This document shows positions 1,462 through 51,200 of a DNA stretch of 64,000 nt, piece by piece; the stretch's first letter is position 1, and each line of letters begins with the position of its first letter. The stretch comes from Ischnura elegans (lineage: Eukaryota > Arthropoda > Insecta > Odonata > Coenagrionidae): positions 110,565,111 to 110,629,110 of the forward strand of contig NC_060247.1 in NCBI RefSeq assembly GCF_921293095.1. The letters run 5' to 3'. The notes beneath the pieces were generated by a model. It worked only from the letters and a program-made list of their open reading frames with translations, did not search any database and had not been told where the DNA came from. Made by a program: the position numbers and the translations under genes.

Positions 1462-2178
1462 GAATGGATTATATATGATGGTGAGTATTGGTAGCACTTC
1501 AGTTAAATGAACATGGAACAAAAATGCTCTTTCTCCTGTTTTTTTTAATAATTCCACGCGGCATAGCATGCAATTTTTAATTTGTTGGTGCTTTTTTTTC
1601 CACTCAATCTTAAATTACTGTGGCTTCTATTTCAGTAACTTGTCTTCCTTGGGTGGTCCTTATTTTTCACTTATCCTACGGGACACACTTCATCACTTTA
1701 TGTCAATTGGTGTAAAAACATATCCTGCAAAATATTATCACTATTGGACAAAGGGAGGACATCGTACTCAAAGTTGAAAACTTTTGGCAATTTTGACTGT
1801 TTTTCGGACAAGAATAGCGATAAGAAGTCGCTGGTATTTTAAAAATGATTTTCTCTGGCATCCAATGACTTTGGACTTAGATATTTGAAGTGCTGTACCT
1901 AATACTGTAATAATAATGTAATTTTCCAATTGTGACCGTTGGTTCCCGAAATAAGTCCCAAGAGTGGAGCGCGTGCCATCGCGCGTGAAGACAATGTCTT
2001 CCATTTTTTTCCACCCCACGTGGTGTGCTCGCGAATACTGCGTATGTATTTTTGTCAAATTTTTCCCGAAGCCTTTTTTTCCCAGTTATTTCCTTCTTTA
2101 ATTTTTACTATTAATTTGGTGGGAGTTCAATGGTCCATGCTTTTTAGAGAATTCCAAGGAAATCGCTGGCTTTCCAAT

Positions 2179-2830
2179 AGGGTGGTTTCCTATTATTTTT
2201 TTATTGCCTATATCGGAAGATTATTACTCCTGGAGTACGTATTTCACGCTTTTAGATTTTTAAATGACGATATCTATTTTTCGCGATTAAATGAAAAGTG
2301 AAAATTTTCAAGCGCGCGAAAACGCGACGGGTAAGGAAATCTCTCCGTGTGACGTATTTCTGGTTCCCCCTCCCGTCTTGTGAGGTGACCTTGATCGAGG
2401 CTCTGAGCGCTGATACGATGCAGGCTGCTACAGGGTAGCTGAGTGCCATTCTGACTGGTAGCGCTTGGCTTAAAAAAGGTTTATTAATACCTTATTAAAC
2501 GGAGAAAACTTTCCGACCTTAGCCAGTTTTAATAGATGATTATTAAGACATGTTTGCCTGAGCTCTGTGCCTCATGCATGCATTGGTAACCTCAGACGAT
2601 GTATAACTTCTATCTTCTCCTATAGAAACTAGGTCCCTGTGACGCCACGTGGAGTGGCATCGCATGGGCGCCAAATTGGCCCTTTTCAAATGAGGATAAA
2701 AATGGACCATTGCCATTCGTCTAAACCGGTATTTCTAAAACGAAATAATTTGTATATTATGAATACAGTAATGGGGGGTAACAAATCGCAATCAATGCCT
2801 TTCGGTTTCTTTGATGAAGGAAACTACCCT
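2179..2830 (+). mobile_element. Non-autonomous TIR DNA transposon (family R1), copy 1
   Basis: About 650 bp bounded by inverted ends AGGGTGGTTTCCT and AGGAAACTACCCT. The same sequence recurs at 49771-50465 in the same orientation and, inverted and split by a nested insertion, at 32389-32677 plus 35979-36345. Shared internal text includes CATGCATGCATTGGTAA and TGACGYCACGTGGAGTG. No transposase is visible in any copy. The flanks show at most a 2-bp duplication (AT), so I do not assign a superfamily. Confidence 0.7.
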
Positions 2831-2859
2831 ATTTCTGGTCGGCTTTAGATATTTAGAAA

Positions 2860-30287: not shown

Positions 30288-33200
30288 ATGTCATTCATGC
30301 GTCCGAATTTTCTTTTCGGTAAGTAGCTACTGATAAGCTTTCACATTTCAGAATCCGTCCGTAATTTCGTCCTCGATGAAAACTCTTCAAGGACTTTTAC
30401 TCACACCAAAACATTAATTCGACCCTACTTAATCGAGATGACCGTCTGCTTTTTAGTAATTTTGAGTTGAAGTGATCTTGATTGGTTGAAATTTAGTTTA
30501 ACTAATTGATTTAGCGTTCGATTTTTTTACGATGTTTAGTCGTTGCAAATCATACTTTTTGGTTAAAAAATTTTACCTGAGGATGTAAAGGCGAGGACTT
30601 AACGTTTTGAAATGGAACAGGAAATGGAGGTTGTGACTGAAAAAAATTTTTACGTGTGAAAATATTAAGGGGTAGGAAAATTGATGAGTAGAGGTAGGTG
30701 AAAATCGCACTTTCATTTTTATTTTATCGCATTTTCAATAACAGTTTATCGCATTTTGTAGCGTCTATTTTTTATTTTCACAATGAGGTAGATGACGATA
30801 AAATGTAGTGAAACATAGTTATATGACAAAATACAGAATATTTTAAATGATTATGTTGTAGAACAATAATAAATTAAGGAATATGACATGTAGTGGCAAA
30901 GGTGTAGCTTGCCCGCGCCCACTTGTAGTTCGCGGCCACGTAGAGTCCCAGCCAACTAGCAGCTGGCCAGCCGCTCACATGCTTTAAGCGGTGAGTGTCG
31001 GCGGAGCATTCAAACTGCGCTCGGCACTAAATTTACGAATTTTGCCGTCGAAAAGGCAAATTTTCGTAACAATATCATAAAAGTCAAGTCATCGCATCTA
31101 TGTCGCATTTATTTGTGCACATCGCATCTAAATCGCATTTATCGCATTTGCGATTTTCACGAATCTATTGATGAGAGAAGTTCGTCGGGCCAATCTTGGG
31201 ACTGGCGACTTGTATTGTGTCGGTTATCCTGACCAAGAAGAAATTTGAGTACGTTAAAATATTTAGTGTACAATGGTCTAGAATTTGGACTTGGTGACGG
31301 ATTGACTGAGCCAGTATCCATAATAAAATCAATTTTTTTACGTAACCCATAATATGTGTCATCAGTTTTCTTTCTCATTCTACATAATTTTGATAGTCTA
31401 CGTTTCTTTCCTATAAATGCGTATCTGACAATTACTTTTTTCTGTATTTACCATACCACAGAAAATTTTGGACTTTTTCATTGGGGGTTTTTCTACAAGT
31501 GAGCAATTAAACGTACAACAACAACCATGCCCTGGATAGGATCAACCTGCGCAGGCGGGACTCGAATAAGCGACCTCTCGTTTGTCAGGCGAGAACTTAA
31601 ACCTGCCTCCACCGAGGCCGGAACAAAATGCTGTTAGAGAGCCTGGATCCGGACTACCCCGCTCACAGGAATCACCCACAGTAACAATTGGGATGAACGT
31701 AAATCATATTAACCCTTAACCGATGACGTGCGGTTTCAGAGACCGCTGCGTTTCTAAAATTTTTAATATTTGCAAAATTAAGATTTCAAAATATCCATAA
31801 TTCTCGTTAGCTTCATATTTTTGTCACTAGGACATCCCACTCTTAAAATTTAACGTTCCTTTTATTAATGCCTGTAAATTTGCAATTGAACTCGATTAGC
31901 GGTCTGTGAGACCGCACGTCACTTGCTATGAATGCATCAAGAAAAGGAATAAGCGGGATAAATTTCATGGCTACTTACTACTTAGCCTTCCAACTTTAAC
32001 ATTTAAGGTCTTTTTTGAATCTGGCAAAATATTGATACATAAATTTAATAATTATAACTCAAGTGTTTTTGGGATCAGTTTTTTTATCCTGCTTCAAATC
32101 ACAATTTTTTATGACAAATTGGTTCGTATTGGGAGCGTAAAAATTTTAATGTAAGTTTTAAAATAGTTAAGCCTTCAAAGAAAAATTAAACAAAACAATA
32201 AAAATGGCGTAGTAATATTTTATGAATTTTTCATTTATTGCGGTCTCCCAGACCGCACGTCACTGGTAGTGTACCTAGACTTGCACGTCTCTGGTTAAGG
32301 ATTAATAATATTATTACCTGGTAAAATACGTGTGCGGCTCGTCAAAAATGCAACGGGGGTACAGACAGCGTTAAGATGTTAAACGAATAAAGTAGTTTCC
32401 TTCATCAAAGAAAGCGAAAGGCATTGTTTGCGATTCGTTGCCCTCCATTAGTGTATTCATAATATACAAATTATTTGGTTTTAGAAATCCTAGTTTAAAC
32501 GAATTTTAATGGTCATCTTAACGTCCTTTGGCAAGAGCCAGATTGGCGGACATGCGATGTCAATCCACGTGACGTCACAAGGACCTAGATGCTATACGAG
32601 TAGTCAAGAGTTTTACATCGTCTGAAATTACCAATGCAAGCATGAGGCACAGAGCTCAGGGAAACATATCTTAATAACTCGCTTTGCTCGCTGGGGGGGC
32701 TCTGCCCTCCCTAGGCCCCCCCGAAAAAGGCCTGCGGCCTGTTATGCTCACTGTGGGAGGTCTTACACTTTTTGTTTGCTACTTGTTACTTAAGGATCGT
32801 TTACTTTTAAGCTGGCTGGCTTAGGTATAAGCAATATTTCCACTTTCACGTAAAACGAGCGCATGGTACGTAGGCTACAATATGAATGTAAATATTTATA
32901 AAGAGAAACGTTTTTCTGAGGGGCTAAAAAAGTAAAATAAATTTCTAAGAGTTTCTTTAACTTATTCAATTCAAATACAAAAAACGTTGGGACCACGTTC
33001 CACAGTAACATCCAATGCACACGTAATATCATAACATAACGACTTTACGAATTACAATGAAAAACACGTTTATTAATTATTTTCCACAAAACTCAACCAA
33101 ATTCTTGATATACGAATGTAAGATGTAACAGCTGTTCCCCTTCGTAAACGAATTACGTAGGGACTGAATATCAATACCTAGAAACAAATGCGCCTTAGCA

Positions 33201-36200
33201 TGAATGGGGGCTAGTATGACGAATTTTATCGAAATATTATTTATCGTGATCGCGAATGATTTCACTTCAGAAATACCTCTATTTAAAATTTTAATGAATC
33301 GGGATACACAAATATCTCAGCTTTAATATCCCACGCAATGCGCAATAAATCTGGTGAGTAACGAATCACAGCCTTTGGTGTACAAGACATTGTGAATATC
33401 AAGATTTCGATACTTTTCACAGTTGAATAACTTAGTCACTCAAGGAATCGTGATTTTCGCAAGACAAATAATTGAATAAGAAATACCTTTATTTGCACTT
33501 ATCTTCCATATTGTATTATTCACTGCCTATTCACTCCTGCAGCTCACGGATAACATTGTACATTAAAAAGGACATTAACGGAAAGAAGAACGTAAACAAA
33601 AATAAAAAATTATCACCATCACAAAAAATGAAAAAAAAATAATAATTTTTACCTACCTATATTATGTAAGACTTGTTTAAAAGTCTTTCTTCTACAATCG
33701 TGTATCGCCAACAAGATACGAACTATAGTCAACTGCACGAATCATATTTCTAAATTGGCATTTAGTGCACTTGTTAACTTTGAAATTCATAACCACCACA
33801 CTTTCGATGTAATATACCAAAAACAACAACTAATTTCCTACCTTATACTTCTCCGCTTTTCATTTGAATGCGCTTTGATTTAAACAGACGTTTGTTCCTG
33901 CGAAAAGAAGACGCAAAGAAATAGACACGTCAAATAATACTTTCTTGATTTCCCTCCTTATATTTATCAGAGTTTCGTTTTAATTCCTTTATCTTCTTTC
34001 CCAATTTAGCTCCTCTTGTTTGCATAAACAAATATGTTGCTATGATTGTTCGTTTGTATGACTGCCGCGCCGCCATTGGAATTTGGTGGCCATTTTTTAA
34101 ACTAATCCCCATACTCAATTGTATATGAATAGAAAGATAAATAATTGTAAATTTAGTGTTTTCATAATTTTTCCTGCGGTTTCAGACAATTTTAGAGGGG
34201 TTCTTCATTAGACTTTTTGCCGTATCTCGTCTCGTTCACCCCAAACATTTGTATGAGTGAGTGAATGAATGAATGAATGAGTGGTCGTTAGGGGATTTTA
34301 TGATATATAGACTCGCTTTGCTAGCTGGGGGGGCTCTGCCCCCCCTAGGCTCCCCCGTAAAAGGCCTTCGGCCTTGTTTTGGTAGCTATGGAAGGTCTTA
34401 TACTATTTGTATGCCGCTTGCTACTTACGGATCTTTTACTTTTCAACTGGCTAGATAAGATATAAGTAATATTTCTACTTTCAAGTAAAACGAGCGTATA
34501 GTACGTGGGTTACAATATGAAAGTAAAATATTAATGAAGAGGAACGTTTTTCTGAGGGACTAAGAAAATAAAATGGATTTTTATGAGTTTGACTGAGTTT
34601 ATAACTTATTCAATTCAAATACAAAATAACGTCGAGAGCATGTTCCCCTGTAACACTCAATTTATACCTACTTAATATCATAACATAACGAATTTACGAA
34701 ATACAATGAACTACAGTAAACTACAATTTAATTGATAAGTGGAGATCCTTAGCATGAATTAGCCCTAATAAGACGTATTTAGAAATGACGATTTTATTAA
34801 AAGATTATTTGTCATGATCGCGAATGATACCACTCCAGGAAAACCTCTATAATTTTTTTATTGAGTCGGTATACACAAACATCTTACAGCTTTAATATCC
34901 AATATAATGCGAAATTAAATCATCTGGTGAGTATCAGATGACAACTTTTAATGAACAAGGCATTATAAATGTCATGATTTAGAATATATTTAAGCTAAAT
35001 AACTTAGTCACTCAATGAAACGTGCTTTTCGCAAGACAAATAATTGAATAAGAAATACCTATTATTGAACTTATCTTCCACATTCTATTATTCACTTCCT
35101 ATGATGCACCAGATCACGGATAAAATTGCACATAAAAAATTGTACACAAAAAAGAACGTAAAGAAGAATAAAACGCTAAAAATAATGTTTATCTACCTAT
35201 CTTTTAAGGAAAGGTTGTTTAGATATCTTTCTACTGCAATAGTGTATGGGCAACAAGAGGGGAACTACATTATGTGCACTTGTAAACTATGGAATTAATA
35301 ACAACCACATTTTCGATTCTATAATCGCACGTATTCTTCATATTCTATTATTCACTACCATTGATGCACCAGCTCACGGATAACATTGCACATTAAAAAG
35401 GTTAGTAACAGAAAAAGGACGTAAGGAAAAATAAAACGTTATCGCCATCACAAAGAATGAAAATAAAATCATTTTTACCTACCTATCTTTTAAGGAAGGT
35501 TTCTTTACCTTGCAGTTCTTCTCTTTTCCTTTGAATACGCTTTGATGTGATCAAATTTTTGTTCATACGGAAAGAAGCCATTAAAAGATTGACTTTTCAA
35601 AAAGCACTAAGTAAATATCCTACCTTTTCTTAATCATTCTTTCGTTTTAATTTCTTTATCTTCTATTCCAATTTAGCTCATCTTGTGAGCATAAACAAAT
35701 ATGTTGCTATGATTGTTTGCTTGTATGACTGCCGCGCCGCCATTGGAATTTGGTGGCCATTTTTTGAACTAATACCCATACTCACTTGTAATTGAATAGA
35801 CGGATAAATAATTGTAAATTTAGTGTTTTCATAATTTTTCCTGGGGTTTCAGACAATTTTAGAGGGGGTCTTCATTAGACTTTTTGCCGTATCTCGTCTC
35901 GTTCACCCCAAACATTTGTATAGGTGAGTGAATGAATGAATGAATGAGTGGTCGTTAAGGGGCTTCATGATATATAGATGACACAATCAAATAGCCCATG
36001 GTTGAAAAGTTTTCTGCGTTTGATGAGGTATAAACAATCCTTATTTAAGCCAAGTGCTACCTGCTACCAGGGTTCTCTGCTACCTGCCAGCAGCCTGCAC
36101 CATAGCGGCGCTTAAAGCCTCGCACCAAGGTGGCCTCACACTGCCACCGGAACCAGAATGACGTCCCACGGGCTTTTCCCAGCATTCATACTTAGCCGTC

Positions 36201-39200
36201 GCGTTTTCCTACGCTTGAAATTTTTCACTTTTCACTTAATCGCGAAAAATAGATATCGTCATTTAAAAATGTAAAAGCGTGAAATACGTACTCCAAGAGT
36301 AATAATCTTTCGATTTGGGCAATTAAAAAAATAGGAAATCAGCCTATTATGCTGAGAGCTAGCTGCTGGAGACTCTGAGGCGGCGCGCTAGGCTTAGATT
36401 GCCTGAACAATTGAAAATGGATATCTTTATGAGCTACCAGGAGAATATTAGAACCCCATTATATTTCTAGGTCCAACAGAAGCGATTAATTAAGAGAGAT
36501 ATTTTGCCGAACAGATAGATACGAGAATTTCTTTTTCCCTTGAGCCATAAATCACTTAAATGAATGCCAGTCGTTATTTCGTTGGAGCATTTCCTTTAAA
36601 TATGCAAATGGCTGGTGTCCTAACACCCACGGCCACACGCCTTTTAAGTGGATTGCGGGGTAGTATGTATATGTAGATGTATATTATTTCTTGCCCAAAG
36701 ATTAGTTGCCTCTCTTTTTTGAAATGCGTAATTTTTAATAAACCCTAATCCATTCAATACGTGAATCGAAACTTTATCGTAAGTATGCCAAACAAATATT
36801 AAATTTAATGCGTAACAAGTAACGAATAAATTTAGTAATAAGATTTTATTCATCCCCGCAATATGATACTGATGAAATCTTACAAGGTTTTCCACCAGGT
36901 TAGTTGCTTGTAGGCCGACATTTCGATGATAGAGAAAACTATCAATGCGTGGGCCAACAAGCAATTCACCCGTTGGAATACCCGAAAATATATCACTGGT
37001 ATAAATTTAGTAAATTATACTTTAGCATATAAATAAGACACGTTTGAAAAACTTTATGGAATTAGTATAGGTTACTAATATATATTTTAGAACATGTTTT
37101 AATAATTATTTAAACATTTTATTTTAAATAAATCATTTTGAATACTTGTAATATTTTTTTCTAAATTTTAGGATTTTTCATAGCGTTCGCAACTCTTGTT
37201 GCAGCAATTCCACCACTGAGTTTTGAGATTGCAGAAGGTTCCGCACGATGTGAGAACCGTACTAATGTAAGTATCAGTTATTTGTTAAGCATTCAATCTA
37301 ATGCCACGGAGCCTCGTTTATCAACTTTTTACCCCTTAACGAACAAGAACACTCACCAAAAGAAGTCAATGCGCATTTGCATCTCATATATGTTAGATAA
37401 CTATCGGTGGTGGAACTTTAAATTTGACTGTAATCAGAGTCCATATCAAATGCAAAATTAAAGATGTTTTCTCTACCCTTTCTTCAATTAAACCTCTGAA
37501 TTTCCTAATGAGCTTTTAAATAACTTTTAGTACTCCTTGTTTCTGCGTCTTAAAAACAATATCTTTCTTTCATTAACGAATTTTTAATCCTATATTTTCA
37601 ACTTTTCTTACTGCTTTTTCCTACTACTCACAAATCGTCCATAACTTCCCATTTCATGCATTCATTTTTTTAGGGATGGCACAATTACCATATTATATTA
37701 TCTTCTACTTGCTTTATCTCTCAATTCCAAAAAACATTAATGTTTTTTTTTCCTTTTTTGTAAAAAATGGCAGATATGGCGTAATATGAGCATTTGACGA
37801 TCCCAATGCAAATGCAATAACGCTAGAATTATCATCAATGTGATCAATTTGCATAAATATTTTTCTAAGAATTTAAATCATTCTGTAGGTGCTGATAAAT
37901 TCCATAAGTAAATGCGTGAGTAGACAGTTCTTGGATGCAGAATTGAATGAAACGGAGAGCCATTACGGCAACACCAAATGTCTTAGGTGCATGCACATTT
38001 GCAGGTGAGTAAAGGTATTAATTTAACGAGATAATGCAATCAAGAAATGCAGCTTAAATGCCATTTTTTCCAAAATTTCTTATATATTGTTTTTTTCCTC
38101 AAATATAAATTACGTAAATCGGAGCGTAATAATTAATGGAAAATGCGTGGATAAATACACCTCCCATACTTATGGGATACATACTCCTCTATATAGGTAC
38201 TTACTCCATTACTCATGTCCAAATATCCAATCCAATCCTATTAAGAATCGCTTCTTAAGCTACGATAAAAATTCTGAAATTCCATAGCTTCATGATATAA
38301 ATAGCTGCAACAAATACCTGAATAATTCCATTAATTTTTTATTCAAATATTTCCTAATATTTAACCCGATATATGTTCTCCTTCTGACTATGTTGACTCG
38401 CAGTCGTGGATGACCTCAGGAAGACACGTCGCGTTCTGGTCCACTTCACTCCTTGAAGATTCTCTAATGAGCTCATAAAATTACCCGACGATAGTAATTC
38501 AAAGTAGGTACATGATAAACGAAATTCCGTTTATCGTCCCCCTTTTCCTCGTTTCCCAAAAGCATCAAAACCCTATTTATTTTTCTTATTCCTTCTCTTC
38601 AATATGTTCTGACCCCTATTGAAATGATTTTTTGTACACGTATAAAATTGTTTCAGACTTTATTTTGTGGAAGTTCACTATATCTATAATGAGTAACACA
38701 AATGGTAATTTTACACACTTTTACAGTCCACAGTTTTTAATGGGTATTGTATTTGGAGGAGGCGACCGACATTTCAGGTTATTTGCGCCATGAGGGAAGG
38801 GTAGGTAAGGAAGGGTGGAAAGAAACTCGGCGTCGGGATTAGCCTGCTCTTAACGAAAGGCGCCAAGGGGACCACGGCTTTACGTCCCATCCGACGGACG
38901 GAGTGTTGCGCTTGAAATTTTCTCCACACAACATTCAAGCAGGGATCGAAAGCAGTTTCTGAAAATTCTCTGCCACCGCCGGGATTTGAACCCGAGCCCA
39001 CGGGGTGTGAAGCCAACACTCTTGCCACCACACCAACCCGATCTCCCACTTTTTAATTCAAAACTCAACAACCGACCATGGTTTCAACACATTGTGTCAT
39101 TTTCAAGGTGATACAAGCATCCGACACGTCGTGGTCGCGCCGAAGGCGCGATTCCTTGCTGTACCGGTGAGCCTAGACTCACCCTAACCAGCCAGTAGAC

Positions 39201-48200: not shown

Positions 48201-51200
48201 GAGATTAAGTTTGCCAGTTTTATCTTTGTTGAAGCGTGGGATTTTCTGTTCGGAGGGAGAAAGTATTCTCTTTTTAATCAGGGGTTCTGGATACTCACGT
48301 TTGATAAGAGGATGGTGGAGGTTGTGTGGCTCGGTGAAGGGATGGTGAATTGTTACAGATGCGATGGGCTCGGACTGAGAGGGAGTAGGGAATTGCGTGT
48401 TTGGTGTGAGGTGGATGGCAACTGGTGTAGTGTAGGTATTGTTCATGGTTGGTGGGTTTTTTTGTGGATGAAGGTGATGAAGGTATTGTTTTCAAGGCTG
48501 ATGTCTATAAAAGGAAGGTAAGGGAGGAAACAGAAAGTGATGAAGTGAAAGAAACGGATGAGGTGGAGATGAAGGATGCAATGATTTGTCTAGCTAATCA
48601 CGCCCATGGGCCCATAGTTAAAAAATATCGTCGATGAAGCGGACTCACAGGAGAGGTTTAAGAGTTTGGGAATTCAAAAAAGTTTTCCAGGTGACCCATG
48701 TAGAGGTTTGCGGCCATTCTGGTGCCCATCGGGACTCCTCGCTTCTGTAAGTAGATGGTGTCGTTGAAGTTGAAGGCGTTTTTGTTGAGAATTAGTTCCG
48801 CTAATTAGATGATAAAGCTGGTGCAGGGAGAGTGAGGCTTCGCTTCCTAACGTCTTTTCCTAACCCCCTCTCGCCATACCTCTCTTCCCTCTCCCCTTTT
48901 TTCCCTTTTCCAACACTCTCCTTTCCTCCCCATTCTTAGCGAGGTTGAGAAAGAAGTTAGTTCTTCGAAAGCTTCCGAGTTTATTTTCCAGTGTGAATGT
49001 TTCTTTTTTTGTGCCTCTGTGTTTATTGATATTGACTTGTACTATATATATATATAATATTGTATAACATCGAACTTTATATTGTTCTCATGTTTTCATT
49101 CATTGCCCTGATGATAGTTGTAAGTAAACTGAAACGTTGGCTAACAACTTTTTTGCATCATATACATTTGATGTATACTCCAAGAAATAATTTTATCGTT
49201 TATCAAATGAGGTGAAGATAAGAAGAAAAAAATTGAAATTATCTTTTCACAGCGTTAAAAACAAATTTCAATTACAGGAAGAAGTCTGAGATATTTGAAT
49301 GCGTTCGTAAAGGGACTGAGCCCTTAGCAAAAATCACTAGAAAGGCAAGGACAATGGTGCCTTTCTTTTCACAGTTTCTGGAAACATACATATCTGGACT
49401 GTGCGAAGATGGGACAGGACTATTTCCAGGTATATATTTTTAATTTTATCGCAGACCTATTCCATCCATCCAAACTGCTACCTGAAGAATATTTATTTTC
49501 CACGGCCTGGCATGAAAAATGCCAGAATACCAAAAAATCTGTCAGTTTCACCAAAAAATGCATCTAACAATACTTGAAGGCGATACAACCTACTATAAAA
49601 CGATGCAATAATTAGGTTTGTTTGACAAATTTATACTATATTAGGGATGATAAAATCCATTTTTCTTCGCTAAAAATTGTACATTTCCCAGAATTTATCC
49701 TCAATGAATACATTTATTGGACCAATTGATAACTTTTAAGGGGTATCACGGAATACATCGTAAAAAGAATAGGGTGGTTTCCTAATATTGCCTAAATCGA
49801 AAGATTATTACTCCTGGAGTACATATTTCACGCTTTTAGATTTTTATATGACAATATCTTTTTTTCGCGATTTAAATAAACGTGAACATTTTCATGAGCG
49901 GGAAAACGCGACGGCTAAGTATGAATGTTGGGAAAAGCCCGTGTGACGTCTGGCTGCTGCTGTGTGAGGCCAAATTGGGTGCGAGGCTATGAATGCCGCT
50001 AGGATACAGGCTCTTTCTGCCGAGCATGCTGGTAGCGTATAGTACCCTGCTAGCACATGGCGCTTGGCTTAAATAAGGGCTATTAATGCCCCATCAAACG
50101 AAGGAAACTTTCCGATCATAGGCAATTTTAATACGTGATTATTAAGAGATGTTTCATTGTGTTCTGAGCCTCATGCATGCATTGGTAATGTCAGGCGATG
50201 TAAAACTCCCGACTTCTCGTATAGAATCTAGGTCCATGTGACGTCACGTGGAGTGTTATGGCATGAGCACCAATCTGGCCTTTTTCAAATGAGGTTAAAA
50301 TTGACCATTAGCATTCGGAATTTGGGAACTGGGTCTAAACTGGGTCCAACTAGATCTAAACTTGGATTTCTAAAACCAAATGATTTGTTTATTATGAATA
50401 CACTAATGGTGGGAAACGAATCGCAATCAAATCATTTCGTTTTCTTCGATGAAGGAAACTACCCTTTTATTTAACGTAGTTTTTCCCAGGCATGGAGAAG
50501 ATTCGAGTATCTCTCGTGGAAGCTTATTATGTTTTTCCACTTCGGCCGCTTCTTAACACTAGAACCACGGACTGGACCTTTTTGTCCCATCGCCCTTTCC
50601 AAATGTTTTCCATCCATGTACTAGTGGTTTGAACCCTTTAAAATTTACTGACGTTTACTCATTTTTTATGCTCTTTTGAATGGTTGTATCGAAAATATTG
50701 TACAATGTTTGGTTCACGAGAAAAACGGCGATTTACCTTGACTTTTTTGTCCCATATGGGGAAAAGATACAATTTCAGTTTTTTTTTACACTTATTTTGT
50801 ATTTAGCATAATAACAGTTTATTACGAAGGGGATCGATGCACAGATACCGTTATTCTGCCAGTTAGAAGCGCAGAAGGGAATAATCTGTGCGCTGCGCCG
50901 CCTACTCACTCAGCGCCGGCCGCGTCACCTCTGCCCGGCGCTGCGACCCTCTTGACAAGCAACACTTACGCTGTCAAAATAAGTTTACTGTATTCCTACT
51001 TATACTTAATAAAACATTTTAAACATTACCTAAAAACGTGTTCTGTTCACACGAACCACAAAAAACCGTCAATTATCCTTAAACATCACAGGATCAACGT
51101 ATTTTGTCAATGGGACAAAAAAGTCCCATGCCGCGGTTTTGGTGGAGTTGGAAAGTTCAGCGGTTCTAGTGTTAATCGGATTTTGAAATGTCCTCAGAGT

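Follow-up and report, generated by a model that had tools for sequence, protein, structure and literature searches.

Among the closest described systems to the elements analyzed here are the canonical Helitrons (Helitron1, Helibat/Helraiser), which start with 5' TC, insert between A and T without target duplication, carry a hairpin near the 3' end and encode a RepHel protein with HUH and PIF1 domains. Whether head-to-tail Helitrons arise by read-through or by repeated insertion has been debated on bat and maize examples (PMC2267711, as far as its accessible text goes). There, Du et al. (2008) ascribed a maize pair of two dissimilar Helitrons with a perfect G/T junction to consecutive insertions, left the order open, and cited reports of bat tandems. 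Tandem Helitron arrays are also cited in the accessible part of PMC5876387. Here, a stretch of 64,000 nucleotides of the Ischnura elegans genome (contig NC_060247.1, positions 110,565,111 to 110,629,110; "the window") was found to contain two Helitron-like units joined head to tail. We interpreted them as two non-autonomous elements of different subfamilies, very probably inserted successively at one point.

Both units run 5' to 3' on the minus strand, as TCTATATATC...GCAAAGCGAG, with no bases between them. The upstream unit, u2 (34312..35978, read from 35978 to 34312; 1667 bp), starts with TCTATATATCATGAAGCCCC and ends with GCAAAGCGAG. The downstream unit, u1 (32678..34311, read from 34311 to 32678; 1634 bp), starts with TCTATATATCATAAAATCCC and has the same end. 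At the junction (34311..34312, minus strand; junction-pattern match C2:110599406-110599439), GCGAG is joined directly to TCTATA. No open reading frame (ORF) longer than 84 amino acids (aa) was listed in the element. The initial annotation of this DNA had described two exactly abutting units of these lengths, which was confirmed; that they lie on the minus strand and diverge from each other goes beyond it.

The units interrupt copy 2 of a repeat, R1. The part to the left of the insertion (32386..32677, plus strand) ends with CTTAATAA and was 83.7% identical to 2833-2540(-) and 75.1% to 50471-50139(-). The part to the right (35979..36348, plus strand) starts with TGACACAATC. R1 copies 1 (2176..2833) and 3 (49768..50471), both on the minus strand, are uninterrupted at the insertion point. 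With the insert removed, the flanks of copy 2 aligned to the other copies at 2833-2248(-) (79%) and 50471-49832(-) (75%), which bore out the earlier proposal that these copies represent the empty site. The break was at A32677|T35979, after CTTAATAA, and T is also the next base in both other copies. No part of the CTTAATAA side was repeated to the right of the insert, that is, there was no target duplication at this site. The first 10-21 bases of copy 2 to the right of the insertion aligned poorly to the other copies, so that the call depends on the left side and on the T.

The genome (1.72 Gb, 110 contigs) was searched with u1, and full-length copies with matching ends were found on many contigs (40 of 3,097 candidates scored). 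The 39 stretches with the best matches, chosen by their likeness to u1, were fetched and their flanks read. The ends were also counted by patterns, which detect only copies whose ends fit; the 3' pattern contains GCGAG, and the 5' pattern, a single one, includes TC. The 3' pattern occurred 565 times at up to one mismatch, and its reversed control 0 times. The base after exact 3' ends (n = 442) was T in 439, C in two and G in one. The base before exact 5' ends (n = 255) was A in 230, G in 19, T in six and C in none. In the fetched loci, A preceded 27 of the 29 outer 5' starts that matched from the first base, four of which (L047-L050) have one common flank. At L012 and L017 the outer start is preceded by ATCT, which is also compatible with A|TC followed by three extra bases. 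GCGAG was present at 39 of 39 outer 3' ends; one inner 3' end, at a junction, was GCCAG.

This genome-wide count of ends and flanks, which the initial annotation had proposed, did not find most copies ending elsewhere or carrying target duplications, among ends that fit the patterns. The window family is genuine and clearly delimited; it is Helitron-like and has a variant 3' end. The four copies L047-L050 (C9:103866076-104482538) have common flanks, as do L027 and L030 on C14, and so lie on segments that were duplicated, and do not represent independent insertions.

The two units were 83.3% identical over aligned blocks, and 65-84% identical in 250-bp windows past the first one. Other full-length copies were 90-96% identical to u1, with identical ends (among the 40 of 3097 candidates scored in the genome search), and in pairwise comparison of the fetched copies the best one, on another contig, reached 97.2%. 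The full-length copy nearest to u2 was 94% identical (C9:72535581), with others at 88-93% (among 40 of 3009 candidates scored); the best among the fetched copies was 92.4%. The units thus belong to different subfamilies, each with its own closest relatives, and most likely arrived separately.

The initial annotation had noted that the tandem fits rolling-circle transposition. In rolling-circle read-through, the 3' end would be passed by the transposase, the element copied twice, and a head-to-tail dimer inserted in one event, as the perfect junctions without an A between units might suggest. A dimer of this kind would be identical at birth, yet there is a 17% difference between the window units, and each has closest relatives of its own. 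The data therefore did not support an origin of the window tandem in one rolling-circle step. What stood of the earlier interpretation was a family of Helitron type that has exact termini and a variant 3' end and inserts at A|T without duplication.

The junction pattern gave 52 matches in the genome, about 36 of which were counted as junctions, arrays of three and four units among them. The maize report, in its accessible text, describes one case; here the flank counts favor the 5' side. Sixteen matches that resemble ordinary AT-rich targets were left out by eye: fifteen had three mismatches and one (C4:108741444) had two. If A|T sites were used at random, about 0.001 junctions would be expected; this is an order-of-magnitude figure, because the copies counted are a minimum and recombination may have produced some of the junctions.

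The number of junctions and the longer arrays would also fit read-through, as would the arrays that a related unit forms on several contigs, repeating regularly at about 2243 bp. Ten of the 36 junctions were read, in fetched or window DNA. The partners were 83.3% identical in the window, 83.2% at L010, 83.1% at L011, 97.1% at L033, 96.8% at L036, 98.4% and 97.5% at L072, and 98.6%, 97.9% and 99.9% at L071. At seven of the ten (window, L010, L011, L033, L036 and two in L072), at least one member was nearer to a copy elsewhere. The L033 units, for example, were 99.4% and 99.1% identical to copies elsewhere (FastTree local support 0.997 and 0.990). The sole near-identical pair (L071 t2/t3, 99.94%) belongs to an array in which another unit is recombinant. 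Most junctions read thus join separately derived units, and we consider read-through highly improbable.

The related family mentioned above has the 5' end TCCTATCTATATACAGCC and the 3' end GTGCGAG (two junctions read). Its head-to-tail arrays have a satellite-like look and were located at C10:12869905-12877073, C6:61948028-61955197, C15:1174070-1178997 and C3:136129195-136131879 of the I. elegans assembly (G000). The array on C15 lies directly behind a 3' end downstream of a RepHel gene. In the third unit at L072 (C2:130105300-130110900), a slightly truncated second 5' end lies about 366 bp inward, so that the unit has two 5' ends and one 3' end.

A perfect junction could also arise by homologous recombination of a circular copy, its ends joined, with a copy already in place. 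Precise head-to-tail circles are reported for Helraiser in the accessible part of PMC4778049, and this route would explain the large excess of junctions at resident copies without special targeting. The recombinant unit t1 at L071 and mosaic windows in L033_t2, L072_t2 and L036_t2 are in its favor. On the other hand, it predicts reciprocal chimeras. The first 250 bp are alike in all subfamilies; beyond them, the units of the three mixed-subfamily pairs each kept their own subfamily, and no reciprocal swap was found in the windows covered (L010 and L011 are cut by locus ends). Moreover, L033_t1 matched the solo copy L037 at 99.2-100% across all six windows. On this balance, circle recombination seemed unlikely as the source of the junctions.

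The recombination at L071 was mapped along the array. Its four units form their own clade (support 0.974). Unit t1 has the letters of t2/t3 at nine sites (columns 624-915) and those of t0 at 31 sites (columns 1053 to 1632), with one switch. Of the 31 sites on the right, 14 had letters that t0 and t1 share and that neither comparator has; three later sites carried private changes. Unit t0 contains about 390 extra bases, and its 5' part lies beyond the fetched stretch. The pattern fits unequal crossing-over, or possibly gene conversion.

The order of successive insertions was judged from the bases before 5' ends. Eighteen of the 19 5' ends preceded by G are listed junctions, the remaining one being at C1:74030102; outside the listed junctions, G preceded 1 of 237 5' ends. 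As G|T was nearly unused there, the later unit should lie upstream, on the 5' side. At four mixed junctions (C4:12775, C11:61382, C10:4201 and C2:104891) a unit that looked u1-like, of the younger-looking subfamily, was upstream as predicted. The u2 subfamily looks older because its nearest copy was at 94% and others at 88-93%, compared with the best values of 96% and 97.2% for u1.

Insertion of the second element behind the first, at G|T, is left possible for the maize pair in the accessible text of Du et al. (2008; PMC2267711). The window itself would agree with this order, as its downstream unit, u1, is of the younger-looking subfamily. The near absence of G before 5' ends outside the listed junctions argues against it, and we regard it as quite unlikely. 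Over all, the mixed-subfamily junctions gave mixed support for 5'-side order.

For successive insertion on the 5' side, a mechanism can be proposed from what was read directly: the ends, the host A|T without duplication, the divergence of the partners, and the RepHel genes upstream of a like 3' terminus. The Y2 HUH-helicase (RepHel) of a related element would move a single strand that starts with TC and ends with GCGAG past the hairpins, and this strand would be joined between a host A and T. The first T of the resident copy and the host A before it would make a new A|T, at which the next element could insert, and stacks would grow 5'-ward. Insertion at resident 5' ends was far above that at other A|T sites, which suggested special targeting of these ends. 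The transposase may recognize and nick the resident 5' end, as in its normal donor cut, and the nick may serve as the target. The stacks may then lengthen by recombination between units, which fits at one locus, L071. We tentatively propose that the resident 5' end is a privileged target, at which a donor-type A|TC nick is captured by the strand of another element. Such capture might seed stacks that grow on the 5' side and then recombine, and might be a general way in which Helitrons give rise to tandem arrays.

A target profile was made from 37 non-redundant 3' flanks (four of 41, L030, L048, L049 and L050, were dropped as duplicates; L023 was not picked up). Position +1 was T in 36, +9 was A/T in 35 and +10 was A/T in all 37; an AT-rich block spanned about +9 to +13. 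Helraiser has a like AT-rich preference on the 3' side of its target, according to the accessible part of PMC4778049. That the 5' end of the element mimics an ordinary target was unsupported by the profile scores. The u1 5' end scored -4.88, and 57% of the A|T sites in the window scored at least as high. The u2 5' end scored -2.47, the end common at junctions -1.9 (30%), and a TTCTAT variant 0.06. Two 5'-like ends after RepHel elements scored high (top 3.6% and top 0.5%). Of the seven ends scored, one (4.83) corresponds to no end observed and was set aside.

Several observations weigh against the proposed 5'-end capture, or against successive insertion in general. The 5' ends of the window family scored as ordinary A|T sites, so that the target profile does not explain the excess at 5' ends. 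In the window, the upstream unit, u2, is of the older-looking subfamily, contrary to the prediction of 5'-side growth. All three L071 junctions join kin, and two of them may be products of recombination, not of insertion. The comparators for kinship were the approximately 40 best u1 matches, not all copies. Some units of one subfamily look mosaic: L033_t2 and L072_t2 were 100% identical to each other in three windows on the right and 97.6-98.8% in three on the left, and in two windows of seven L036_t2 was nearer to its partner. Recombination is thus not confined to L071, and acts within stacks and perhaps between them.

The family was compared with the described classes. The 5' TC and insertion at A|T without duplication (duplication judged at the window site only) agreed with Helitron1, as did a predicted hairpin 10-15 nt from the 3' end, which lies at 15 nt in both units. 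In u1 (minus strand), the predicted folds are AGGCC-GCA-GGCCT (32728..32740) and a G-run paired with a C-run (32693..32722), from which a 15-nt tail leads to the terminus. In u2 (minus strand), they lie at 34361..34375 and, as GGGGGGGC-AGA-GCCCCCCC, at 34327..34345, followed by a 15-nt tail. The fold of the u2 3' end had a z of -3.18, with 0 of 200 shuffles as stable; the 81-nt 3' end of u1 was no more stable than shuffles (z -0.40). Unlike canonical Helitrons, the family has two or three predicted 3' hairpins and ends in GCGAG, not CTRR; thus it lacks one of their defining features.

The features of Helentrons (Helitron2) were not found. The 5' 122 nt of u1 folded like shuffles (z 0.06), a result for the fold only, with no search for subterminal inverted repeats. 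The TT target did not agree with the preceding base, which was A in 230 of 255 and T in six, and no endonuclease family matched at E <= 0.001 in two RepHel ORFs (1870 and 1800 aa).

To the left of the insertion, two near-identical short stretches with inner palindromes, GCGGTCTGTGAGACCGCACGTCACT (31899-31923) and GCGGTCTCCCAGACCGCACGTCACT (32240-32264), are possibly the ends of another repeat.

The genome contains 119 matches to Helitron_like_N, in ORFs of about 1,123, 1,480-1,500 and 1,790-1,925 aa and of other lengths. At all six loci read (C16, C71, C15, C13, C17 and C5; ORFs of 1,792-1,880 aa), GCGAG|T was found downstream of the RepHel gene, behind a GC-rich hairpin and AGCGAGC. The ORFs of canonical Helitron RepHel are about 1400-1500 aa, shorter than the 1792-1880 aa here. 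The tail at C5, AGCGAGCAAACGCGAG, is close to that of the window, AGCGAGCAAAGCGAG. C71 and C16 were 99.5% identical as far as the GCGAG end and diverged one base past it. We took these ends as probably those of the RepHel elements, which were read on their 3' side. At C16 and C17, the stretch from the gene to the end contains no start-like motif; for C5, where the fetched part of this stretch was 949 bases long, a smaller intervening element is possible. At four of the six loci (C16, C15, C13 and C5), GCGAG is directly followed by a sequence that resembles a further 5' end.

The C16 protein contains Helitron_like_N, PIF1, Pif1_2B, LPHAH and KYLFKYLMKG, and no endonuclease; the C17 protein contains Helitron_like_N, PIF1 and Pif1_2B. 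The N-terminal parts at L079 (1549-7158) and L080 (1592-6991) matched Pfam Herpes_teg_N, below the curated cut-off at L079 and above it at L080. We take this stretch to be perhaps a cysteine-protease-like domain ahead of Rep. The RepHel groups with ORFs of 1123 aa and about 1490 aa were rejected as partners, as no ends common with the window family were found (one and two loci), and none of the three stretches scanned had a perfect GC-rich stem with a CTRR-like end. In viral contigs, there was no exact match to the 3' end, and none encodes a relative of the helicase part.

The initial annotation had suggested that the lack of CTRR might mark a variant lineage. With six RepHel-linked 3' ends also reading GCGAG|T, the ending looks like a lineage trait. 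No description of a GCGAG terminus was found in the literature searched, most subscription papers being outside its reach. Likened by description only, from accessible text, proto-Helentron-Pi of Phytophthora infestans (PMC4067079) resembles the family in a RepHel of 1,783 aa without endonuclease and in insertion at A|T without duplication; it differs in its 5' TT, 3' CTAG and further proteins, e.g. with a SET domain. The non-canonical Helitrons of Fusarium (PMC5148889, accessible text) have non-CTRR termini and copies with two 5' ends, as in the third L072 unit, but they have asymmetric terminal inverted repeats and a target after TNAT.

Exact ends number in the hundreds and junctions in the dozens in this genome, which allows read-through and repeated insertion to be tested against each other; most junctions read favored repeated insertion. 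The dozens of similar stacks show how rows of mobile DNA may form. Should the RepHel elements also end in GCGAG, this lineage would escape any search for which CTRR is required.

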